Positions 10,509-33,031 of a stretch of DNA of 35,087 nucleotides are shown piece after piece. The notes below the pieces were generated by a model. It had not been told where the DNA came from, did no database searches, and saw only the letters and a program-made list of their open reading frames with translations. The stretch is from Gallionella sp. Its GTDB lineage: Bacteria > Pseudomonadota > Gammaproteobacteria > Burkholderiales > Gallionellaceae. The DNA lies in NCBI GenBank assembly GCA_025350705.1, contig JANXXH010000074.1:1-35087 (forward strand), read 5' to 3'. The position numbers and the translations under genes were made by a program. Each line of letters opens with the position of its first letter. Position 1 is the first letter of the stretch.

Positions 10509-11679
10509 GGAAGGTCTGAATAAGTAACAACAAATGAGAACGACGAGTGCACATTCTGCTGTGGGAATTCGAATTGGCCGGAAATTACCCTGGCAAGGGT
10601 CATTTCGCCGGTCATTCCGGTCGATTTTCTGCTCATCAGACGCACCTCTCCTGCGGAAGCCGTAACAGATGCCGTCGCGCCATGAACAGATTCGCCAGCG
10701 CCGCCACGACGAACAGGCGATGGCCGTTCTTCACCATGCCGCGATAGTTGACCTTGGCAAAACCAAAGATGCGTTTGATGATGAGAAAAGCATGTTCAAC
10801 CTTGGCACGCACACGCGACTTCCTGCTGTTCTTCTCCCGTTCCCGTTCGCCGAGTCCATGGTTGCGAAAGCCCTTCTGGTTGGTGAAGTCACGCGCCTTC
10901 GGTGCGGCCTGAGCGATCAACTCCTTTTGGCTGGAATAGGCAGAATCGCCATACACCCGTTGCTCGTTGCCGTGCAGCAGTTGCGGGATGGCGTGTTTGT
11001 CGTGCACATTGGCAGGTGTGGCGACCACCGAGTGGATCAGCTTGGTCTTGCTGTCCACACCGATGTGCGCCTTCATGCCGAAGTACCACTGATTGCCCTT
11101 CTTGGTCTGGTGCATCTCCGGGTCGCGCGCATAGCTCTGATTCTTGGTCGAGGACGGCGCATTGATGATCGTCGCGTCGACGACAGTGCCGGTCGCAACC
11201 GCAAGCCCCTGGGTTTGCAGATGTCGGCCAACTTCCTCGAACAGGCGCTGCCCCATTCCGTGTTGTTCCAACAGATGGCGGAACTTGCACACCGTGGTTT
11301 CGTCCGGCGCCCCCTCCCGCCCCAGATCGATGCCGACGAATTCGCGCATGGACAGGGAATCATAGAGGGCTTCTTCCACCGCAGGGTCGGAGAGGTTGAA
11401 CCAGTTCTGGAGGAAGTAGATGCGCAACATGCGCTCAAGGCCAACAGGCGGGCGTCCGTTTCCGGCTTTGGGGTAGACCGGTTCGATCAGGGCACACAGG
11501 GCAGACCATGGCACTACCCGATCCATCTCGGACAGAAACGCCGCGCGTCGCGTCGTCTTGCTGTAGCGGTCAAAGCTGCCTGCAGAGAGTGTTGTTTGTT
11601 TCATCGTTCTGCTCCGTTTGTTCGATCTTCGCTTCTGACATCATGAAACGAAATCGTTCAGGACTTAATCAGAGATTCC
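10509..11679 (-). mobile_element. IS5-family insertion sequence, 1171 bp
   Basis: Left end GGAAGGTCTGAATAAGT (10509-10525) and the inverted right end GGAATCTCTGATTAAGT (minus strand, 11679-11663) match at 14 of 17 bases. The element is flanked by TTAA at 10505-10508 and 11680-11683, a 4-bp target duplication as usual for the IS5 group. It contains one intact transposase gene on the minus strand. Clean ends, an open frame and a preserved target duplication suggest a fairly recent insertion. Confidence 0.92.
10636..11604 (-). CDS. IS5-family transposase
   Basis: 322 residues, the normal length for the IS5 group. The N-terminal helical region (MKQTTLSAGSFDRYSKTTRR) is followed by the DDE core: first Asp in 'TGTVVDATIINAPSS', second in 'RVYGDSAYSSQ', Glu in 'RAKVEHAFLIIKRIFG'. 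YFGMKAHIGVDSKTKLIHSV is the conserved block between them. The start at 11604 has a GGAG ribosome site. No frameshift or stop is seen, so the enzyme is probably active. Its large plus-strand shadow frame was ignored. Confidence 0.97.
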   Translation of the reverse strand: MKQTTLSAGSFDRYSKTTRRAAFLSEMDRVVPWSALCALIEPVYPKAGNGRPPVGLERMLRIYFLQNWFNLSDPAVEEALYDSLSMREFVGIDLGREGAPDETTVCKFRHLLEQHGMGQRLFEEVGRHLQTQGLAVATGTVVDATIINAPSSTKNQSYARDPEMHQTKKGNQWYFGMKAHIGVDSKTKLIHSVVATPANVHDKHAIPQLLHGNEQRVYGDSAYSSQKELIAQAAPKARDFTNQKGFRNHGLGEREREKNSRKSRVRAKVEHAFLIIKRIFGFAKVNYRGMVKNGHRLFVVAALANLFMARRHLLRLPQERCV

Positions 11680-18807: not shown

Positions 18808-19284
18808 TCACATTCCTAATGAAGCCTGAAGCTGGGAGGTGTCGATTGGCTTATGCAGTACAGGCCATTCGCACTCTGTCGCGTTCTTGATGAATGCAGT
18901 TGAAGTGTCACCGGTGATCAGCACGGCACGGATCGGCCCATCGATCAGTACCTGCATGCGCCGTGCAAATTGGTCAGATGTACCGTGATAAGACGCGGTC
19001 GCCTGGCTCCCCTTGTAATAGCTGACATATATGCCCGGAACAAGCTTGAATAGATCCGGAATCTTGCGAAAACCGGAAGCCACGATCATCTCCCGGTCGA
19101 TCACCGTCATCGCACTGGGTGCTTCGGACAGCGGTTGCGACAAGCGTGAAGCCGTGAGCAAGACAGGGAATTCCTGAAGGTAAGCTTGCTCGCTTGAATA
19201 GTCGGCTGCGCTGGCCTTATGTGCAGTCACGCCCATAATCAAAGCAGCTATCAATTGCCCATGTTGGAACAGCCTCGTCTTCAT
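18808..19284 (-). pseudogene. fused remnant: TonB-receptor N-terminus joined to receiver C-terminus
   Basis: 158 codons from ATG 19284. Residues 1-27 are a signal peptide (AHKASAADYS at the cleavage region). Residues 40-116 match the plug domain of TonB-dependent receptors: VLLTASRLSQPLSEAPSAMT, VIDREMI, GFRKIPDLFKLVPGIYV, RRMQVLIDG. At about residue 117 (near 18936) the match switches in frame to PIRAVLITGDTSTAF then WPVLHKPIDTSQLQASLG, the C-terminal end of a receiver domain as found at the end of hybrid sensor kinases. The beta-barrel and most of a downstream kinase would have been removed by one deletion. The reading frame is open, but no functional product is expected. Confidence 0.8.
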
Positions 19285-19448
19285 TTTCAGATTCCTTATT
19301 TCCTGCTGTAGCTTGAGTGCAGCTAATATGCTTCTCAATATATCGTATATATAACGCCAACTGTTAGCTGCCTGAGGCTTTGTCTGGCACACAGTTATGG
19401 GAGTTATAAGGAATATGTATCTTGAGCATCACGCGCTTTTCGGCTTTA

Positions 19449-25183: not shown

Positions 25184-25888
25184 ATGTTTTACTTTAAACG
25201 CATCATTACCGCCTGCCTCGCGTTGGTAGCTCTGCTTACGCACACGACGGCAGTCGCAGAAATTAGTAACCTGGCATCGCAACAACCTTCATCCCAGGAG
25301 ACACCCCCGAATCAATCTGTGAATGAAACCAAATTACGCATCGGTCCCGGTGACCCTGTCGCTGGCAAGAGCAAGGCCGAGTTGTGCTTTGGCTGCCATG
25401 GTGAAGACGGCAACAGCACATCCCCCGAGTTTCCCAAGCTTGCCGGTCAATACGGAATATACATCGCAAAACAGATCCGTAATTTCCAGGCCACTACCCG
25501 CACTCACCAAGTCATGAGCGCTATGGCAGCAGCCGTCATCGACGAAGATCTGGCCGATATCGCCGCTTATTTTGCCAGCCAGCCGATGATGAAAGGAGCC
25601 AGCCCTTCCAGCAACAAGATTGGAAAGAAACTGTTTGAAAATGATGATCTGCCCAGAATGATGGTTCGCTGCAACAATTGCCACGGCACAACAGGCAAGG
25701 GACAAAACCCCGGCAACCCGGTGTATCCCGTGATAGGCGGGCAACACAAGGATTACTTGCTCGGTCAATTGATAAACTTCAGAAAAGGCGCCCGCAACAA
25801 CAGCCCGAGCGGCGTGATGAATACAATCGTGCACAGATTGAGCGATGCCGAACTTGAGGCATTGGCAGATTACATTTCCGGACTATAA
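25184..25888 (+). CDS. diheme cytochrome c (c4-like), copy A
   Basis: 234 residues: signal peptide (cleavage about residue 25, TTAVAEI), a Gln/Pro/Ser-rich linker, then two class I cytochrome domains. Haem sites are CFGCH (68-72) and CNNCH (163-167). The Met ligands are plausible in the 'MSAMAAAV' and SGVMNTIV regions. The plan with LAGQYGIYIAKQIRNFQ and IGGQHKDYLLGQLINF is that of cytochrome c4, a periplasmic electron carrier to terminal oxidases or from metal-oxidation systems. It is a close paralogue of the gene at 26766; the more divergent gene at 25981 lies between them. Confidence 0.93.
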   Translation: MFYFKRIITACLALVALLTHTTAVAEISNLASQQPSSQETPPNQSVNETKLRIGPGDPVAGKSKAELCFGCHGEDGNSTSPEFPKLAGQYGIYIAKQIRNFQATTRTHQVMSAMAAAVIDEDLADIAAYFASQPMMKGASPSSNKIGKKLFENDDLPRMMVRCNNCHGTTGKGQNPGNPVYPVIGGQHKDYLLGQLINFRKGARNNSPSGVMNTIVHRLSDAELEALADYISGL

Positions 25889-25980
25889 CCAAACATCCCG
25901 AATGAAGCCGCGCCTTCATCATGAACTCAGCCTTTAATTTCGGAAGAACCCATATTATCAGGAACACACAGGGGGATAAA

Positions 25981-26700
25981 ATGCTTAAATCAACTTTCAT
26001 GTTTTTGTCATGGCTGATGCTGTCCGCCGTCACGCTGCAATCCCAAGCCGTTTTTGCTGTTGATGCACCTGCGAACCTTCGTGCGGATGCCGCCAATGGT
26101 CAAACTATCTACAATGAAGGCAAAGGTGATGCGACTTCTTGCGGTGGTTGTCATGGAGAAAAAGCGTTGGGTATGGACGCCATGGGTGCGCCGCGTCTGG
26201 CAAATATCGGCCAGATATATGTCATCAAACAACTCATTGACTATGCCGAAGGCAAGCGCGCCGATGCTGGAGCGGGCGCGGCAATGAATGACATTGCCAA
26301 GGCGCTGAGCGAGCAGGATCGCCGAGATTTGGCTGCTTATCTGGACTCGTTAGAATATGCAACGGAGCCGTCCGACCTCAAATCACTCGCCGCCGACGGT
26401 GGCAAAATCGGCGACCCGAACAAGGGAAAGATCATCATGACTAAAGGGGTCAAACCCCTGGTTCCGGCATGCCATGATTGTCACGGGTTTAGCGGGCGCG
26501 CCCCGAATATCCCGGCAATTCACCATCAGAAATATGTATATCTGGTCAATCAGTTGAATAGTTTTCGCGCTGGCAGCAGGGCAAACGATCAGGCGGTGTA
26601 TAAAGTCGGAATAATGCGCGGGATCGCAAAAAAGCTCACCGAAGAGAACATCGCAGATATTGCCGCGTACCTGTCTACTATTACCGATCTGACACCATGA
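25981..26700 (+). CDS. diheme cytochrome c (c4-like), divergent copy B
   Basis: 239 residues from ATG 25981 (GGGGGATAAA upstream); the in-frame Met at 25921 gives a poorer signal peptide. Signal peptide to about 27. Haem sites are CGGCH (54-58) and CHDCH (164-168). Both half-domains keep the c4 helix pattern (QIYVIKQLIDYAEGKRAD; QKYVYLVNQLNSFRAGSRAN), but identity to copies A and C is low. The spacing and Met-rich loops differ (AAMNDIAK, KVGIMRGIAK). It is probably a periplasmic electron carrier with a different potential or partner. Confidence 0.9.
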   Translation: MLKSTFMFLSWLMLSAVTLQSQAVFAVDAPANLRADAANGQTIYNEGKGDATSCGGCHGEKALGMDAMGAPRLANIGQIYVIKQLIDYAEGKRADAGAGAAMNDIAKALSEQDRRDLAAYLDSLEYATEPSDLKSLAADGGKIGDPNKGKIIMTKGVKPLVPACHDCHGFSGRAPNIPAIHHQKYVYLVNQLNSFRAGSRANDQAVYKVGIMRGIAKKLTEENIADIAAYLSTITDLTP

Positions 26701-26765
26701 ACTAGTTCTAATTTGCACGCCTCGACAAAGCGTATTCGTGCAGCTAGTAACTTGAGGAGAATGAC

Positions 26766-27422
26766 ATGACTTTCATCAAAATCCACACAGCGGTCTGCTT
26801 GACAATGGCCGTTCTGCTTGCCGCTCCATCCGCGTTTGCTGCAAGCGCCAATACGAATATGCTCAAGCGCCATACCGGCAGCGGCGACCCGGTCGCCGGC
26901 AAAGAGAAATCGCAGATCTGCCAAGGTTGCCATGGCATGGACGGTAACAGCACCGATGAGATGATTCCCAAGCTTGCAGGGCAATACGATGAATACATCG
27001 CAAAACAGATGCGCAATTATCAGGCTGGAACACGCTCGCACGAAATCATGAACGGTATGGCAGCACCCCTCAGCGACAAGGATCTGGGCGACATTTCAGC
27101 TTACTTCGCCAATCAACCAATCATGAAAGGGAACGGATCGACGACCAATGAGATAGGAAAAAAAATATTCTTAAAGGGCAACATCACTCAAATGGTGATG
27201 GCTTGTGCCTATTGTCACGGCGCTACGGGCAAAGGCCTTGATCCCTCAACGGCGATGTACCCTGTGATTGGCGGTCAACATAAGGCTTATCTGTTGAAGC
27301 AACTCAAGGATTTTCGTGAGGGTAACCGCATGAACAGCCCGAACGCCGCGATGAACAAGACCCTCAAGGCGCTAAGTGATTCTGAACTAGAGGCATTGGC
27401 CGGATATATTTCCGAGCAGTGA
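26766..27422 (+). CDS. diheme cytochrome c (c4-like), copy C
   Basis: 218 residues, signal peptide to about 26 (PSAFAASA). Haem sites are CQGCH (52-56) and CAYCH (147-151). The sequence DPVAGKEKSQ, DGNSTDEMIPKLAGQYDEYI and YFANQPIMKG parallels copy A closely, including the segment GDPVAGK before haem 1. ATG 26766 follows GAGGAGAATGAC, nearly identical to the ribosome site of copy A (GAGGAGAATGAG), supporting a gene-level duplication. Likely function is periplasmic electron transfer. Confidence 0.94.
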   Translation: MTFIKIHTAVCLTMAVLLAAPSAFAASANTNMLKRHTGSGDPVAGKEKSQICQGCHGMDGNSTDEMIPKLAGQYDEYIAKQMRNYQAGTRSHEIMNGMAAPLSDKDLGDISAYFANQPIMKGNGSTTNEIGKKIFLKGNITQMVMACAYCHGATGKGLDPSTAMYPVIGGQHKAYLLKQLKDFREGNRMNSPNAAMNKTLKALSDSELEALAGYISEQ

Positions 27423-27458: not shown

Positions 27459-27495
27459 CTGGTAACCGCGCCGGATTATCCGGCGCGGTTACCAG
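27459..27495. terminator. perfect 16-bp hairpin between convergent cytochrome operons
   Basis: Arms 27459-27474 and 27480-27495 are perfectly complementary (starting CTGGTAACC, centre GCGCCGG) with the 5-base loop ATTAT. It sits 37 bp after copy C and 33 bp before the end of the convergent minus-strand cytochrome gene. No T-run follows on either side, so it may be a factor-assisted terminator or 3'-end stabiliser serving both operons. Confidence 0.65.
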
Positions 27496-27527
27496 GCACT
27501 ACTCACAGGTGAATCAAGCAAGAAATC

Positions 27528-27848
27528 TTATTTGGCCAAACCTGCGATATATTCCGACATAGCCTTGATCTCGGCCTCATTCGCACCCATACCCTTGGCC
27601 GGCATCTTGCCCATCTTCCAGTCAAACGCACCACCCTTGGTGATATTCGCGTCGAGCTTGCTTACTGCGTCCTTATCACCCTTGTATTTTGCGGCAATAT
27701 CCATGTATGACGGCCCCATCTTTTTCTTGTCGACGTCATGGCATGCGCCGCATTTTGCTTTGCCTGTAGCCGGCATTTCAGCTGCCAATGCGGTTCCCGC
27801 CACCATCAAACTTGCTGCGATAAACATTCCAGTTATGACTGATTTCAT
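27528..27848 (-). CDS. monoheme class I cytochrome c (c551/c552-like)
   Basis: 106 residues from ATG 27848, behind a strong AAAAGGAGAA site; the longer frame to 27971 lacks a signal start. Signal peptide MKSVITGMFIAASLMVAGTA (cleavage after LAA). Single haem site CGACH, with the distal Met in FDWKMGKMPAKGMGANEAEI. Size and the Pro-rich loop before the axial Met fit c551/c8-type electron carriers. It is the last gene of the minus-strand redox operon; a soluble periplasmic acceptor or donor for the membrane complex is a natural role by position. Confidence 0.93.
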   Translation of the reverse strand: MKSVITGMFIAASLMVAGTALAAEMPATGKAKCGACHDVDKKKMGPSYMDIAAKYKGDKDAVSKLDANITKGGAFDWKMGKMPAKGMGANEAEIKAMSEYIAGLAK

Positions 27849-27967
27849 TTTTTCTCCTTTTGGTTGATGAATAAAGATGCTTCTTGCTACAAGTGATAAT
27901 TTTTGACAGTACTGCTCTTCTCCATGAACATCATGCTCGCCGATAACCGGCGCACTCTTCAATTGAA

Positions 27968-28204
27968 TCATCCATCCAATTTTCGCGGAAGATGGGCACG
28001 CAAGTGACGAAGTGTCTCCGCCAAAATGGAATAGCGATCAAAGAACTCTTGGGTATGTTTCATATCCTCTCCTTTACTGGTAGCTTCACCGCCTCCTGCT
28101 TTAAGCATGACCATGCGCAAGGCGTCGGTCAACTGATTGTGAAATTTGGAAACTTCCTCATCTGAGGAAAATGCCAACATTGTATTTTTTGAGTTGTATT
28201 TCAT
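27968..28204 (-). CDS. 78-residue hypothetical protein in redox operon
   Basis: No family recognised. No signal peptide, haem site or membrane helix; the sequence is helical and charged (SSDEEVSKFHNQLTDALRMV; TQEFFDRYSILAETLRHLRA). The ATG at 28204 has AGGATA just upstream. It lies between the tetraheme and monoheme cytochrome genes on the same strand (87 and 119 bp gaps), so it is probably co-transcribed. A cytoplasmic helper or small regulator is possible but unsupported. Confidence 0.6.
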   Translation of the reverse strand: MKYNSKNTMLAFSSDEEVSKFHNQLTDALRMVMLKAGGGEATSKGEDMKHTQEFFDRYSILAETLRHLRAHLPRKLDG

Positions 28205-28290
28205 TATCCTGATTTTGCGCAGTGATTATCCGGTTAAGCCACATTAATGTTGTGAAACCAAACTTGCTTGCATGCCCATTTGATGTTGCT

Positions 28291-29127
28291 CTAGTGCTCA
28301 CCATCCCCGACTCGTTCATAGTTGGCATTTTTCATTCCCCTTGGCAGAGCAGGCGGTGGTTCTGGTTTGAGCCGGTTAAATCTGGTTGCCTGGACGGTAT
28401 GCGGGTTATGACATTCAGTGCATACCCACCATCTCTTCTTGCCGCCCGTGGCCCATGAGCCGATTCTTTTCCCGTGCACCCCTTTCCGCCAGTCAATGTA
28501 ATTCTCGCCATGGCAACTGCCGCATAATTTTTGGGGTTGGTTGAAACTAAACTCGGTTCCTTGTCGATCAACCAGTCTGTTGCGGTTCGTTGCGCTGTGG
28601 CAATTTAGACACCACAATGCCCCGTGCCCGTGCATCAACTTGAGTGAGTTCTCAACGATGTCCTGATGCATCCCGATCAACCTTGGCTTGTTGCCCTTCG
28701 GGAATGGCACCATTTTGCCGTCATGGCATGTCTTGCATCCGTTGGGTCCCATATTGAAATACTGTAGCTGAGGCTCTCTCGGTTTCACAACGGCATTGGC
28801 AAAATCGCCGCGCGTATCATCGGTTATTTCCGGCATCTCGCCCATCGGTATCGTCCCGTAAAATGGATCTCCCCACCATAGAACAGCACCAGTTGTTTGC
28901 GAGCATTTCACATTTGGATATCCATACTTTGAATCGACACTTTCGACCCCGGTAACGGATGAGTAGCCTATTCTGCTTTCAAAGCAGTCTGTCACGGGCT
29001 GCGTACTCTTTATCTCAGCAGGCTTTTCTTCCGCAGAGTATGCGATGCCATACGTGCTCAACCCGCCAACCAGGAAACCGCACAGGACAAGTACAACTAT
29101 TTTTGACGATTTATGCAGGCTATCCAT
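28291..29127 (-). CDS. tetraheme periplasmic c-type cytochrome
   Basis: 278 residues from ATG 29127 (GGAGATATTTGAA upstream). A hydrophobic N-terminus (residues 8-30, IVVLVLCGFLVGGLSTYGIA) is a signal peptide or membrane anchor. Four CXXCH sites: CKTCH (131-135), CLNCH (173-177), CGSCH (202-206), CTECH (236-240). Extra histidines (HQD, HGHGALW, GVHGKR, NPHTV) can supply distal ligands. The ending 'WVCTECHNPHTVQATRF' then a Pro-rich tail is common in cytochromes paired with NrfD/FeS modules. It follows the NrfD gene by 25 bp. It should connect the membrane module to soluble cytochromes. Confidence 0.93.
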   Translation of the reverse strand: MDSLHKSSKIVVLVLCGFLVGGLSTYGIAYSAEEKPAEIKSTQPVTDCFESRIGYSSVTGVESVDSKYGYPNVKCSQTTGAVLWWGDPFYGTIPMGEMPEITDDTRGDFANAVVKPREPQLQYFNMGPNGCKTCHDGKMVPFPKGNKPRLIGMHQDIVENSLKLMHGHGALWCLNCHSATNRNRLVDRQGTEFSFNQPQKLCGSCHGENYIDWRKGVHGKRIGSWATGGKKRWWVCTECHNPHTVQATRFNRLKPEPPPALPRGMKNANYERVGDGEH

Positions 29128-29152
29128 TTCAAATATCTCCTTAAGCTCCGTT

Positions 29153-30388
29153 CTACGAAGAAGCCGACGCCTTCTCATGACTCACTTCGCCAGTCAATAT
29201 GCCGATCGCTCCTTTTAGAATAAGCGTCAAGAACAGGAACCCGAGGGCCCAGACAAACAGCACGTTGAAAAACTCGATGAGGGTCACGTGGTATTCCGCA
29301 TATTCTCCAAGCGGGGTAGGGCTAAAAGCGGGAAACACAAGAATCATGGGCTTCTCTATCAGGATCGCGAAGAACACCACGAAACACACCATGGGAAGCA
29401 GACGGTCATAGCTATGTCTGACCTTGCGGAAGAGAAGCGCAACAAAACTGGCCACTAACGCCCCAATCGTCCCCCAAAACCATGGCACGTACATATTGAG
29501 TCCGTTGTGGCCGAACATGTTGTATTTCAGCGAGTCGGCGTGCTCGGTGCTCGGATAAAGCAGCGTAAAGAACTCGGCAGCGAATACCAGCATCAGGATA
29601 CCGAGGCTCCAGGCAATGATCGTGGTCATCAAATCGATGACGGGATCACCGATCTCCAGCCTGGTATATTTTCGGGCTAGCAGGAATATCAGGACGACCA
29701 ATGCCGGCCCCGAAGCACCTGCCATCGTCAGAAAAGCAAAGGGCAGAACTGCGGTCGCCCACATACCTACCCTGGCATTGCTGGCGAGCACGAAAGCCGT
29801 GACGATGTGGATCAGCGGACCCCATGCAATGGCCAGAAACACAATCGGCCTGAACCATATTGCCAGTTGTTTTTCATGAAACGTGCCGACATATTTTTTG
29901 AAAAGGATATAACTGACACCGATGAGATTCAGAAGCAGATAGACGTTCAGAACGATCGTGTCGTAAGCGAGCATCGAATTGGGAAAGTTCATGAAGCCGA
30001 TTCCGGGAATGATATGCCAGGTTCTGTCCGGCCTTCCCATGTGAAACAGGACGAAGGTGATACCTGTCGCAACAAAGACCATTGCGACGATCTCGCCCAT
30101 CACGGCAAGCTCCTTCATATCCTTGCGATGATAAAAATAGCCGGGGGCAACGACCAGCACTGCCGCCGCCGCGACATGTGCCGTAAAGACGAAGTTGGCA
30201 AAAAACGCTTCCAGCGTGACCTGGTCGGTCGCTCCGGTCACGATCAGCCCCTGGGTAAATTGGATGTATGCCGTGTAGGAGCCGACCAGGATGAAAAATG
30301 CCAGGAACAGGAGCCATGCGTAGTACATCCGCCCGCCTTTTATGGCATACGAACCGAAATCCATTGCGAAAGACAAAGCAGTATTCAT
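29153..30388 (-). CDS. NrfD/PsrC-type quinone-interacting membrane subunit
   Basis: 411 residues, about ten membrane helices, no signal peptide. The NrfD-family features include an N-terminal 'YYAWLLFLAFFILVGSYTAY', the helix with FHMGRPDRTWHIIPGIGFMN (Asp/Arg near the predicted quinol site) and the conserved MILVFPAFSPTPLGEYAEYH. This protein class exchanges electrons with the quinone pool and pairs with a four-cluster ferredoxin. Here the ferredoxin gene ends 9 bp upstream. The total length is at the upper end for this family, comparable with the longer forms found in Hmc/Dsr/Cbc-type complexes. Confidence 0.92.
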   Translation of the reverse strand: MNTALSFAMDFGSYAIKGGRMYYAWLLFLAFFILVGSYTAYIQFTQGLIVTGATDQVTLEAFFANFVFTAHVAAAAVLVVAPGYFYHRKDMKELAVMGEIVAMVFVATGITFVLFHMGRPDRTWHIIPGIGFMNFPNSMLAYDTIVLNVYLLLNLIGVSYILFKKYVGTFHEKQLAIWFRPIVFLAIAWGPLIHIVTAFVLASNARVGMWATAVLPFAFLTMAGASGPALVVLIFLLARKYTRLEIGDPVIDLMTTIIAWSLGILMLVFAAEFFTLLYPSTEHADSLKYNMFGHNGLNMYVPWFWGTIGALVASFVALLFRKVRHSYDRLLPMVCFVVFFAILIEKPMILVFPAFSPTPLGEYAEYHVTLIEFFNVLFVWALGFLFLTLILKGAIGILTGEVSHEKASASS

Positions 30389-30397
30389 TTCGTGACC

Positions 30398-31459
30398 TCA
30401 GCCTATGTAATAAAAGAATTTGGGATAAGTGCCATACTCTTCCTTGAACCTGAAGACGCGCTTGGTGGCCAGCACTCTCCTGACGTCGCTCTCGGGATCG
30501 AGAAGATTGCCGAATTTCCTGGCGCCCACCGGACAAGCCTCCAGACAGGCAGGATTCCTGCCCTCCCTCGTTCTCTGCACGCAGAAGGTGCATTTCTCCA
30601 TCACGCCCCGCATGCGCGGCCGGTTACCAAAATAGTGGGTCTTGGGATTCATCTCCTCGGCAGGAAGGTTGGGCTCACCCCAGTTGAATCGCCTGGCATG
30701 GTAAGGACAGGCAAGCTGACACATGCGGCAGCCGATGCACCAGTTGTAATCGATCAGGACCACACCCGCATGATCCCTGAAGGTTGCCCTCACCGGGCAA
30801 GCTTTGACGCAGGGTGGCTTCTCGCACTGCTGGCACTGGACCGGCACATAGAAAAAGTCCTTGTCAGGCACCAGGTCGTCGTTGTAGTAATTCTGTGCAT
30901 CCTCGGTGGAAAAACCGGCAGTTTTGTAGGCGTTCCCGCCAACCTGGACGCCGTAATCGCCGAACTCGCTCTGCTCAGGATATCCCTTGTCCAATTGTTC
31001 TGTGGTAAAGGAAATATTCCCTTTGGGCATTTTCATCACCTGTATCCATTGAACCTCGGGATCATGGCGTGACTGGTTATTTTCCTTCACACAGGCATGA
31101 ACGCAGCGCCTGCATCCGATGCATTTCGAAATATCGAGGGCATAACCGAACAGAACCCCTTCCGGAGCAGGCACATCAGAAACCGTCGTTTTCTTCCCGT
31201 ATTGTGCGGAATACCGCTTTTCCAGCCGCGCAATGGCCTGCTTTTTTTCCTCATCTGACATCAGTATGAAATGTCCTTGAAAAAACTCCGCAACGGTTAC
31301 ATCGGCATCTGGATTGGCAGGGTCGACAGCAGCCTCTGCTGACGCAGGTGCCGCCACAAGCGCCGCCACGCTCGAAGCACACACATTCTTCAGAAATTCG
31401 CGGCGGCCTTGTTGTAGATCATCCGCCTCATTCGATTCCTTGATTTTTTCTTTTGACAT
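30398..31459 (-). CDS. Tat-exported four-cluster [4Fe-4S] ferredoxin subunit (NrfC/DsrO/HybA-like)
   Basis: 353 residues from ATG 31459 (GGAGGCAGTG upstream). The twin-arginine signal RREFLKN at about 19-25 is followed by an Ala-rich segment, so the mature protein faces the periplasm. Cysteine sets CIGCRRCVHAC, CQQCEKPPCVKACP, CIGCRMCQLACP and CTFC...CLEACP predict four [4Fe-4S] clusters. It lies 9 bp before nrfD. Between the signal and the first cluster it carries FILMSDEEKKQAIARLEKRY, a motif shared with the small Tat protein next door. No molybdopterin subunit is adjacent, so electrons probably pass to the tetraheme cytochrome. Confidence 0.93.
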   Translation of the reverse strand: MSKEKIKESNEADDLQQGRREFLKNVCASSVAALVAAPASAEAAVDPANPDADVTVAEFFQGHFILMSDEEKKQAIARLEKRYSAQYGKKTTVSDVPAPEGVLFGYALDISKCIGCRRCVHACVKENNQSRHDPEVQWIQVMKMPKGNISFTTEQLDKGYPEQSEFGDYGVQVGGNAYKTAGFSTEDAQNYYNDDLVPDKDFFYVPVQCQQCEKPPCVKACPVRATFRDHAGVVLIDYNWCIGCRMCQLACPYHARRFNWGEPNLPAEEMNPKTHYFGNRPRMRGVMEKCTFCVQRTREGRNPACLEACPVGARKFGNLLDPESDVRRVLATKRVFRFKEEYGTYPKFFYYIG

Positions 31460-31495
31460 CACTGCCTCCAACAACAGATATTAGGTAACCAAAAA

Positions 31496-31756
31496 CTATG
31501 CGATCTCCTGGTAATGACAATTCAGCAGCTCATCAAGCCGCTGTTTTTTTTCATCGTCCGTCATAACGATCAGTTGATTCCCCGTTACCGCCTTTTCCTG
31601 CCATGCAACATCAGCTGCGTACTTTGCACTTGCGTCGTTATTCGATGCAGAGGACCCGGATATCAAGGTCTTCGTGTAACCAGCCGCCGCAACAACACCA
31701 GCTGCCGCAACCGTCTTCTTGAGAAATGACCGCCTGGAATTTTCTTCCTTGATCAT
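31496..31756 (-). CDS. small Tat-signal protein (ferredoxin N-terminus look-alike)
   Basis: 86 residues from ATG 31756 (AGAGGTGGGC upstream); longer starts are weaker. It has a Tat motif, SRRSFLKKTVAAAGVVAAAG, then a linker, then LIVMTDDEKKQRLDELLNCH at the C-terminus. Both parts match the first 90 residues of the adjoining ferredoxin gene (RREFLKN; LMSDEEKKQ), so it may be a partial duplicate or a true small subunit; small Tat proteins accompany formate dehydrogenase-type operons. It contains one Cys and no haem motif. It lies 36 bp before the ferredoxin gene and 50 bp after the response regulator. Confidence 0.75.
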   Translation of the reverse strand: MIKEENSRRSFLKKTVAAAGVVAAAGYTKTLISGSSASNNDASAKYAADVAWQEKAVTGNQLIVMTDDEKKQRLDELLNCHYQEIA

Positions 31757-31806
31757 GCCCACCTCTTGTATGTGCTTATGCATCGGTTTCTCCAAAATTA
31801 TCGCGG

Positions 31807-32199
31807 TTAATCAGACAGCTTGTTATCCATGAAACCGACTTTATTCCAATTCACAAACACTTCGCGAACCTGCATGAACTGGAAGGACTTGTCGAAGAAA
31901 TAGTCGGCATTGGCGCGTTTGCAGGCGTCCACGTAAAGCTCGCCGTTGCAGTTGGTCAACACCATGACTTTGATTTCGGGATGGTGTTTTTTGACATTCT
32001 TCAGAACGGCAACCCCCGTTCCGGATTGCAGGTTGAGATCGAGGATCACGACATCGGGCAGCAGCGCATTGATCTGTTCGATCGCACCCGCTTCGTCCGC
32101 CGCATAACCGGCTATCCTGGCATCGTGAAACTCAGACAACATGGAGCGCAGGCTTTCGCGCATCGCTTCTGAATCTTCCGCAATAAACACATTCATCAT
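31807..32199 (-). CDS. receiver-only response regulator
   Basis: 130 residues, a single CheY-like receiver with no output domain. The acidic pair is in FIAEDSEAM, the phospho-Asp is D54 in VVILDLNLQSGTG, the Thr is in VMVLTNC and the Lys in FFDKSF. The tail after the last helix (FVNWNKVGFMDNKLSD) is short. It is the first gene of the minus-strand redox operon, 50 bp before the Tat gene. The cognate histidine kinase is not in the window. A stand-alone receiver leading an electron-transfer operon suggests phospho-dependent control or crosstalk. Confidence 0.92.
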   Translation of the reverse strand: MMNVFIAEDSEAMRESLRSMLSEFHDARIAGYAADEAGAIEQINALLPDVVILDLNLQSGTGVAVLKNVKKHHPEIKVMVLTNCNGELYVDACKRANADYFFDKSFQFMQVREVFVNWNKVGFMDNKLSD

Positions 32200-32572
32200 T
32201 TCGCCTCATTACGCTTATCGGTTTGCAAAATCGATGTGCGAATTATGTTTCCTCACTCATGCAGGCGGTAGCGAGGTTTGTCCTAAAATGATGTAGGTGG
32301 CAGGCAGAAGTTGCTGTCAGTGTTTGTCTGACATGTTCCGGCAGTAGGACGAATTCTGGTAGATTGGACTGAAAGCCGATGCGCTACCCTAAGTAGTTTT
32401 GGGCTAGGCGTTCAGTCAAAAGGTTGGGAAATTTGGTACATCAAACAGGTGTGCTAATAGTGCGCGTTTTTAAGACTATAGTTGTCTGACCGCTATGGGG
32501 CGGCATATATAATGTCATGGTATTCTGCTCGGTGCCAATAACGGATCTCAGCGTCGATGCCTGTCATTTCGC
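32200..32572. other. intergenic region upstream of the redox operon
   Basis: 373 bp without a gene. It holds an inverted repeat TGTCAG-7-CTGACA (32315-32333), a candidate plus-strand promoter at 32485-32513 (TTGTCT, 18 bp, TATATA) that points at the 3' end of the PsiE gene with only a 26-codon frame after it, and TACCCTAAGTAGTTTTGGGC near 32384. The operator for the redox operon is expected here but I cannot name a binder. The response-regulator start has GAGGCG at a good distance. Confidence 0.4.
32315..32333. repeat. inverted repeat TGTCAG-N7-CTGACA
   Basis: Perfect 6-bp arms, 32315-32320 and 32328-32333, about 120 bp upstream of the redox operon. Size and symmetry suit a dimeric regulator or a weak hairpin. 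No binder is known. Confidence 0.35.
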
Positions 32573-33031
32573 TTACTCTTCAATACCGGGTTCATGAACT
32601 GCCTGGGGATCGCTAACTAGTTTATAGACGACTCCAATCACTAGCAGAGCAGCCAGCAATAACCCATAGTGGGTTGGATTAAAGCCTGATTCAGCTCCAT
32701 TGGGATTGCTGACTATTTGCACGGGCTGTACAATCATTTCGCGAATCACTGAGATCATTGCAACCTCTACAAAGACGCGCACGTAGATACGGCCAGTTTG
32801 CAGGTAGTTCATCTCCGCCGAGATCAAAGTTGATAGTGTCCACAGAATGAAAAGTGATCCCAATGCATGAAAAAATCCATTTGCTGCATTCCCTGCATGC
32901 CAGGCGTCGACCGATTTCAATCCAAAATCCCATATAACCATCACACACGCAACACCTAGCGCCAACGCGAGCAGCACATGAATGAGTTGGTTGAATTTTT
33001 TCATACCCAAAATAAGTTGCTTATCCAACAT
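32573..33031 (-). CDS. PsiE-like membrane protein
   Basis: 152 residues from ATG 33031 (GGAACGTG upstream); the longer frame to 33076 is less likely. Four membrane helices, with 'LHALGSLFILWTLSTLISAE'-type (FHALGSLFILW) and 'RIYVRVFVEVAMISVIREMI' stretches typical of the phosphate-starvation-inducible PsiE family. The role in the cell is not known. It is monocistronic here and divergent from the VOC gene. Confidence 0.8.
   Translation of the reverse strand: MLDKQLILGMKKFNQLIHVLLALALGVACVMVIWDFGLKSVDAWHAGNAANGFFHALGSLFILWTLSTLISAEMNYLQTGRIYVRVFVEVAMISVIREMIVQPVQIVSNPNGAESGFNPTHYGLLLAALLVIGVVYKLVSDPQAVHEPGIEE

Follow-up and report, generated by a model that had tools for sequence, protein, structure and literature searches.

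What is the task of an operon that joins a quinone-linked membrane subunit to a ferredoxin and periplasmic cytochromes, is headed by a lone receiver and has no catalytic subunit? The operon lies in a stretch of 35,087 nucleotides (the window) from Gallionella sp., a relative of iron oxidisers, and all seven of its open reading frames are on the minus strand, in the order first described. A stand-alone receiver of 130 residues (31807..32199; PF00072, 66.5 bits) that retains Asp54, Thr82 and Lys104 is followed by a small Tat protein of 95 residues (31496..31783) with a TIGR01409 Tat signal and a C-terminal L-M-T/S-x-x-E-K motif, and by a Tat ferredoxin homologous to DsrO with four [4Fe-4S] sites (30398..31459; several Fer4 models; NCBIfam DsrO 180.8 bits, cut-off 200). 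Next come an NrfD-type membrane subunit homologous to DsrP (29153..30388; PF03916, 70.8 bits; DsrP 239.1 bits, cut-off 350) and a periplasmic tetraheme cytochrome c of 278 residues (28291..29127; PF14522/PF09699) with four CxxCH motifs (CKTCH, CLNCH, CGSCH and CTECH). A 78-residue protein of unknown fold, U78 (27968..28204), and a monoheme cytochrome c of 106 residues (27528..27848; PF00034) complete the operon. The gene order, the motifs and the lack of a catalytic subunit given in an earlier note on this DNA were borne out by the reading frames and family scans of the window.

With ribosome-binding sites judged by eye, the small Tat protein starts at ATG 31783 (95 residues is a common length among its homologues), the ferredoxin at ATG 31459, the tetraheme cytochrome at ATG 29127 and the monoheme cytochrome at ATG 27848. 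From the chosen starts, the gaps are 23 nt (receiver to small Tat), 36 nt (small Tat to ferredoxin), 9 nt (ferredoxin to NrfD), 25 nt (NrfD to tetraheme), 86 nt (tetraheme to U78) and 119 nt (U78 to monoheme). An Rfam scan of the window gave no match at gathering, and a promoter scan of the operon region found four sigma-70-like sites against 6.1 expected.

The ferredoxin, NrfD and tetraheme genes form a widespread core. It was found in 285 related stretches among the genome contigs searched, the best 80 of which are the 80 loci counted below, and in 74 of 395 genomes of one sampled phylum. Among loci found through the tetraheme cytochrome, order and strand are the same in all 71 that carry the three genes, an arrangement beyond chance. 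The 16 cluster cysteines of the ferredoxin are conserved throughout a hand-chosen set of 36 module sequences. The tetraheme cytochrome has 869 homologues at E <= 0.001 (120 of them listed) and two extra cysteines, C48 and C75, invariant across 22 sequences; a PDB search with its profile gave a best E of 0.013. For the NrfD protein, 14 hydropathy windows, combined by eye into 10, indicate about 10 membrane segments, and a PDB sequence search returned no match at E <= 1. In a tree of 36 module proteins, 14 of 27 reductive DsrP loci, nine hand-picked oxidative DsrP proteins and three ActC rows, without the published DsrPh, the module forms a clade of its own (support 91/88; branch recovered in 90% of 200 bootstrap trees). 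This clade adjoins reductive DsrP (100/100), far from both the ActC and the oxidative DsrP of the same genome.

The small Tat gene directly precedes the ferredoxin gene in the window and stands as a gene of its own in 53 of the 71 loci whose ferredoxin is untruncated. Its profile also matches the window ferredoxin at residues 7-91 (27.6 bits). By these sequence comparisons, the small Tat protein is a part of the core and a homologue of the ferredoxin's own leader. It is a free copy of that leader, probably serving as an uncleaved anchor or an assembly piece. This relationship accounts for the small protein to which other authors assign no known function, provided that the gene is the same; among the 120 matches listed (of 136), which are mostly unnamed, no cable-bacterium name occurs.

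The closest likeness is to a locus already in print. As given in the accessible parts of two papers, the DsrOhPh-tetrahaem locus (TMH1-DsrOhPh-tetrahaem, 'pACIII') occurs in cable bacteria and some Beta/Gammaproteobacteria, and its authors suggest that the locus of cable bacteria passes electrons from quinone to the periplasm, the function being unproven (PMC13047784, PMC11976967). Both loci carry a DsrO homologue with a Tat signal and four clusters, an adjacent tetraheme cytochrome, a small protein and a DsrP homologue near the reductive clade, and both stand apart from the canonical dsr genes. The small protein may differ: here it is a Tat protein, and the published locus, whose gene order was deduced from its name, has TMH1, a single-helix protein called unique to cable bacteria in the part of the source available (PMC13047784). 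The published tetraheme cytochrome is described there as having four hemes that are all His-His ligated, and the predicted structure of the window cytochrome has a pLDDT of 33.7, too low to support any pattern of heme ligation. The window adds the receiver, U78 and the monoheme cytochrome, and its ends are common to another NrfD operon. To judge by gene content and homology, the window core matches the printed locus and hence is not a private combination, so the earlier note's view of an unrecognised combination is not supported for the core and its small protein. Of the two parts that the note had named in this combination, the small Tat protein proved common in the family, and the receiver is lineage-specific, present in one of the 80 loci.

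Other known systems fit less well. DsrMKJOP likewise has a c-type cytochrome alongside its O and P homologues, and the likeness to DsrJOP proposed earlier is upheld. However, the DsrJ cytochrome is triheme according to the accessible part of the source (PMC8076601), in place of which the window has a tetraheme, and there is no DsrM or DsrK among the neighbouring reading frames scanned or read. DsrMKJOP was rejected on these missing neighbours, the separate clade and the DsrP and DsrO scores given above. Two relatives, L102 (359.7 bits) and G040 (358.3 bits), exceed the DsrP cut-off without DsrMK beside them, so annotators should not infer a Dsr complex from a DsrP call by itself. Alternative complex III (ACIII, Act) resembles the window in its NrfD fold, clusters, multiheme cytochrome and proposed quinol:cytochrome c role, but the operon has one NrfD and no ActB1-like protein, and ACIII was rejected because ActC is a distant branch in the tree. 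QrcABCD was compared by model scores only and rejected (QrcC 154.8 of 400 bits, QrcD 21.4 of 570), both below the window's DsrO and DsrP scores; of the wider comparison proposed in the earlier note, the tree was run against DsrP, with ActC added. CbcSTU of Geobacter, likened here by description only, also combines a multiheme cytochrome, a ferredoxin and an NrfD protein without a catalytic subunit.

These comparisons suggest, with a probability of about 0.6, that the operon encodes a DsrOhPh-tetrahaem type of membrane complex, acting as a quinol:cytochrome c oxidoreductase that lacks a catalytic subunit, which is consistent with the conduit between quinone and soluble cytochromes put forward in the earlier note. 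NrfD would oxidise quinol on its periplasmic side, possibly moving charge as it does so, and electrons would pass through the four ferredoxin clusters and the tetraheme cytochrome to monoheme, and perhaps diheme, cytochromes of the periplasm. Three diheme c4/PdsA-like cytochromes (25184..27422; PF00034, PdsA-like below cut-off) are encoded on the plus strand, convergent with the operon; the first and third share 36% and 33% identity with the fused hexaheme cytochrome belonging to the alternative operon described below. They do not adjoin the module in its closest relatives and are possible partners only. U78 has no Pfam or NCBIfam match; its predicted structure, a beta hairpin and two helices (pLDDT 72.4), gave no match at E <= 0.001 in a fold search against the PDB. 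It occurs in 12 of the 80 loci: in three it follows the tetraheme gene, and in nine it precedes the small Tat gene.

The outer genes of the operon also occur around another core. Receiver orthologues 78-87% identical head a different NrfD operon in five sister genomes (G014, G028, G047, G050 and G051), all without the window's core; receiver to NrfD lie on a single contig in four of them and are split over two contigs in G051. A further orthologue (71%) is found in G089/L025, and each of the seven receivers in the family with an identity of 71% or more heads an NrfD operon, two with the window's core and five with the other. A monoheme cytochrome 66-70% identical closes the alternative operon in G014, G028, G047 and G050. 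At the DNA level, the window matches G050 at 85% over 782 columns (31769-32537) and G028 at 90% over 534 columns (31845-32378), matches that take in the upstream, presumed promoter, region (32200..32537, minus strand); DNA homology between the two operons is confined to both ends. The receiver and the monoheme cytochrome are thus a frame around either of two NrfD cores. The alternative operon (same family, L224-L228) likewise has the receiver and upstream DNA first and the monoheme cytochrome last, but begins its core with a fused cytochrome with 6 CxxCH, and its ferredoxin and NrfD are 34% (249 columns) and 24% (122 columns) identical to those of the window. The gene maps come from a greedy picker of reading frames that misses overlapping genes, and an antisense frame hides the alternative ferredoxin in L224 and L225. 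Slit_1321-1324 of Sideroxydans ES-1 was dropped as the alternative operon since its content, as listed in the accessible parts of the sources, differs: a cytochrome b, an extracellular protein, a monoheme and a diheme (PMC10734462, PMC8788666).

That one frame surrounds two distantly related NrfD sets suggests a single job, exchange with that monoheme cytochrome. The alternative NrfD occurs in 27 of 158 family genomes and in none of the ten that carry the window's core, a non-overlap expected by chance with p 0.14 and not significant. The receiver may tune the operon's output to a phosphorylation signal. Its standing as a regular part of the operon, foreseen in the earlier note, is supported by the sister operons and by regulators near the module elsewhere, with a histidine kinase family in 8 of 81 sequences and a sigma-54 regulator family in 11 of 81 (family scans cover the L102 members only). 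Of 68 loci, 11 have a sigma-54 promoter motif upstream, against 0.1 expected in shuffles, and none was found in the window. That the receiver and the monoheme cytochrome lie beside the core by chance is very unlikely. The rarity of the receiver among the related loci would fit such a reading, as would the receiver tree, in which the two receivers heading the window's core were neither grouped nor their grouping rejected (AU p 0.22), a result compatible with movement of either the frame or the core. Against it stand the seven of seven receivers heading NrfD operons, with NrfD on the same contig in four of the five other-core cases, and the DNA homology that marks both ends of the frame.

The direction of flow is a further point, as the same complex could run backwards, from periplasmic cytochromes charged by sulfur or iron to the quinone pool; this is possible but doubtful. 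Low-potential multihemes suit ubiquinone reduction, and it counts against the preferred reading that low-potential clusters and hemes could push electrons into a ubiquinone pool. The genome also has dsrA (by model) and ACIII genes (by eye), and dsrA is present in every one of the 15 genomes searched whose ferredoxin is at least 74% identical. However, the last gene of the operon encodes a class I monoheme cytochrome, a class usually of high potential, and the neighbours of the module elsewhere favour quinol oxidation: bc1-type genes in 7 of the 80 loci (by eye) and, directly upstream in three (L100, L102, L103), a DmsA-like reductase set in which a second ferredoxin and a TorD-like protein accompany a large Tat protein of the molybdopterin type. 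These three sets are the basis for regarding the operon as the membrane portion of a respiratory reductase with a molybdenum subunit encoded at another site, which is improbable at just 3 of 80 loci; the molybdopterin-type protein of L102, the one scanned, reaches 616 bits with TIGR02166 (cut-off 777.7). None of the five PF00384 proteins in the window's genome is an orphan, each being assigned to another system from sequences and neighbours read by eye (assembly 87% complete), and no molybdoenzyme partner was found in this genome, in keeping with the earlier note. The genome's other three NrfD proteins adjoin rDsr, ACIII and SoeABC genes (names by eye, dsrA by model), the act locus being separate, on contig C40 (by eye).

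An auxiliary role in reverse Dsr sulfur oxidation, in which the complex would exchange electrons with DsrJOP or replace it, would agree with the DsrO/DsrP homology and with the distribution of dsrA, but is unlikely. In the family, dsrA passes the cut-off in each of the nine genomes whose ferredoxin orthologue is 79-100% identical (G029 being split over two contigs) versus 76 of 149 others (Fisher p 0.003, uncorrected for phylogeny); soxB has no such link (3 of 9 orthologue genomes, 56 of 158 overall). Yet p becomes 0.017 when G040 (60% ferredoxin, no dsrA over cut-off) is included, and dsrA is absent from L046 (69% ferredoxin), the next relative of the clade. In a wider sample of module genomes, 50 hand-chosen of the 80 loci with six genomes common to the 15-genome set, 24 have dsrA and 26 lack it, including 16 of 16 titled Deltaproteobacteria. 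Moreover, the genome keeps its own dsrAB, with dsrA and a DsrO/DsrP-like pair on C83 and the window operon on C141, and the module NrfD is nearer to reductive DsrP than to the C83 DsrP.

For the preferred quinol:cytochrome c oxidoreductase, several observations count on the other side: an ACIII is already present in the same genome, most related loci lack U78 and lack a similar monoheme cytochrome (the latter found in 7 of 80, at the operon tail in two), and a wider search in another phylum found the reverse order, tetraheme before ferredoxin and without the small Tat gene, in 16 of 30 loci. In the literature searched, largely without subscription papers, no paper showing this locus was found beyond the two on cable bacteria, no biochemical test of any member, and no earlier account of the core membership and leader homology of the small Tat protein, of the receiver-monoheme frame or of the co-occurrence of dsrA with the core.

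The core is thus widespread and in print without a proven function. For some Gallionellaceae, it is tentatively proposed, at less than even odds, that a regulated slot, with promoter and receiver at one end and the monoheme cytochrome at the other, takes either of two distantly related NrfD electron-transfer cores. Working alongside bc1 and ACIII, both would do the same quinol:cytochrome c oxidoreductase job with no catalytic subunit, and the ferredoxin's detachable Tat leader would serve the complex as a tag for docking or assembly. The shared frame leads to a testable prediction, namely that both NrfD cores, under one receiver and promoter region, would feed the same monoheme cytochrome.

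The seven genes lie on the minus strand from 32199 to 27528 of the window (contig C141 of a 2.69 Mb assembly in 161 contigs, 87% complete) and, as the earlier note had described, share one strand in the order receiver, small Tat protein, Tat ferredoxin, NrfD, tetraheme cytochrome, a 78-residue protein (U78), and monoheme cytochrome. The nearest NCBIfam models are DsrO for the ferredoxin (180.8 bits, below the cut-off of 200) and DsrP for the NrfD protein (239.1 bits, below the cut-off of 350). The tetraheme cytochrome has two extra invariant cysteines that could serve as ligands or form a disulfide. We infer the role of the receiver from gene position. Elsewhere in the window are a membrane protein of the PsiE family (32573-33028; PF06146, 66 bits), encoded upstream of the operon, a transposase-like ORF (10636-11604) that by eye looks like an IS5 member, and a short ORF (18808-19392), possibly a gene remnant, that by eye resembles a TonB-dependent receptor at its start and a receiver/kinase fragment at its end.

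The earlier note did not recognize this combination, yet its core of ferredoxin, NrfD, and tetraheme cytochrome, together with a small protein, is already in print as a known but uncharacterised locus. Excerpts of PMC13047784 report this set from cable bacteria under the name TMH1-DsrOhPh-tetrahaem, note relatives in Beta- and Gammaproteobacteria, and give sulfur metabolism as absent from 5 of the 16 genomes checked there; an excerpt of PMC11976967 names the locus a candidate alternative complex III. A tetraheme profile search of genome_contigs gave 285 related stretches, and among the best 80 of these, ferredoxin, NrfD, and tetraheme genes kept one strand and order in all 71 loci having all three, with the small Tat gene before an untruncated ferredoxin in 53 of the 71. 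In a sample of another phylum, a ferredoxin profile matched 74 of 395 genomes at E ≤ 1e-70; among 30 loci fetched, the small Tat gene precedes the ferredoxin in 14, and the other 16 (L196-L211) lack it. These 16 form a second module type, in which a tetraheme-like gene of shorter length comes first, followed by ferredoxin and NrfD.

The comparison with DsrP proposed in the earlier note was made in an NrfD tree of 65 rows (36 module, 3 second type, 14 reductive DsrP, 9 oxidative DsrP, and 3 ActC; two long end branches, L046 and L178, were flagged). A branch with support 91/88, recovered in 90% of 200 bootstrap trees, separates the module NrfD proteins from all other rows, and they lie next to reductive DsrP, thus reproducing the published placement with rows of our own choosing that exclude the published sequences. 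The second-type rows branch with reductive DsrP (93/80), and the window genome's own DsrP-like and ActC proteins form long separate branches. Ten module rows lack the small Tat gene and form a single clade (98/95), so one loss suffices.

The small Tat profile also matches the window ferredoxin, within its N-terminal 91 residues (27.6 bits), and in most loci its top matches after the small Tat protein itself are the ferredoxins; DsrO proteins match more weakly (best 14.3 bits), and one second-type ferredoxin scores 18.9 bits. Both the leader and the small Tat protein contain the Tat motif together with an L-M-[ST]-x-x-E-K stretch. In the family genome G040 (L142:8641-9432), a protein encoded immediately ahead of the true ferredoxin gene joins a leader copy (71% identical over 104 residues) to repeat-like, by eye Sel1-like, sequence. 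Together these point to the leader being a detachable part.

A link to sulfur metabolism is clade-bound, and its counts ignore phylogeny: of 158 family genomes, 85 have a dsrA above the cut-off, as do 9/9 of those with a ferredoxin orthologue of 79-100% (15/15 with six non-family genomes at ≥ 74% added); G040 (60%) has no dsrA over the cut-off. Searches for dsrA found none in L046 (69%), or in 26 of 50 sampled module genomes, among them all 16 titled Deltaproteobacteria, and soxB showed no link with the ferredoxin orthologue in family genomes.

Other module neighborhoods vary. In L100, L102, and L103, a DmsA-like molybdopterin protein, a second ferredoxin, and a TorD-like protein lie directly upstream, and kinase and sigma-54 regulator genes downstream; L102 and L103 also have a 5-heme cytochrome. 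In 11 of 68 loci (L069-L071, L073, L075, L076, L078, L079, L083, L084, and L089; 0.1 expected in shuffles), a sigma-54-like promoter motif is found 120-190 bases upstream of the module. Eleven loci (L063, L067, L068, L075, L077, L079, L083, L084, L089, L091, and L096) have a nearby UbiE/MenG-like methyltransferase family (134.6 of 158.35 bits in L075, the one scanned), perhaps for quinone modification.

The closest family receivers (78-87% identical; G014, G028, G047, G050, and G051) all occur without the window's core. They head an apparently undescribed operon (L226:4791-8867, also L224, L225, L227, and L228) of receiver, fused cytochrome (6 CxxCH, as in G028), Tat ferredoxin (present in G028, G047, and G051, there cut by the contig end), another NrfD (27/158 family genomes), and monoheme cytochrome. 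The latter, 66-70% identical to the window's, follows NrfD in the four genomes that have the operon on one contig; in G051, a contig other than the receiver's carries the NrfD gene and a 62% cytochrome. Upstream of the receiver, L226, L227, and L228 encode a kinase and a LuxR-type regulator (families scanned in L226); L025 has a similar pair ~3.3 kb ahead of its receiver. DNA alignments matched window positions 31769-32537 (85%) and 27516-27875 (73%) in G050, and 31845-32378 (90%) and 27487-27874 (77%) in G028, with no further match reported between these end blocks. G089 shares receiver and core with the window (80.5% over 4053 columns). The window receiver is nearer receivers of the alternative operon (87%) than that of G089 (71%), whereas among the rows compared the window's core is nearest that of G089. 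This suggests that cores were exchanged while the frame was kept, although a tree of 12 receivers does not prove it.

The fused cytochrome shows weak similarity to the tetraheme (25% over 121 columns, E 2e-5) and matches the window's first and third diheme cytochromes well (36% and 33%), a Rosetta-stone hint that the convergent diheme genes (25184-27422, plus strand) may be partners; that they do not adjoin the module in its closest relatives speaks against this. In the excerpts, PMC13047784 and PMC11976967 both propose electron transfer from quinone to periplasm. Flow in the opposite direction seems less likely, these being odds on direction between readings that overlap. The best-supported reading, with a probability of about 0.6, is that the module would act as a quinol:cytochrome c oxidoreductase that lacks a catalytic subunit.
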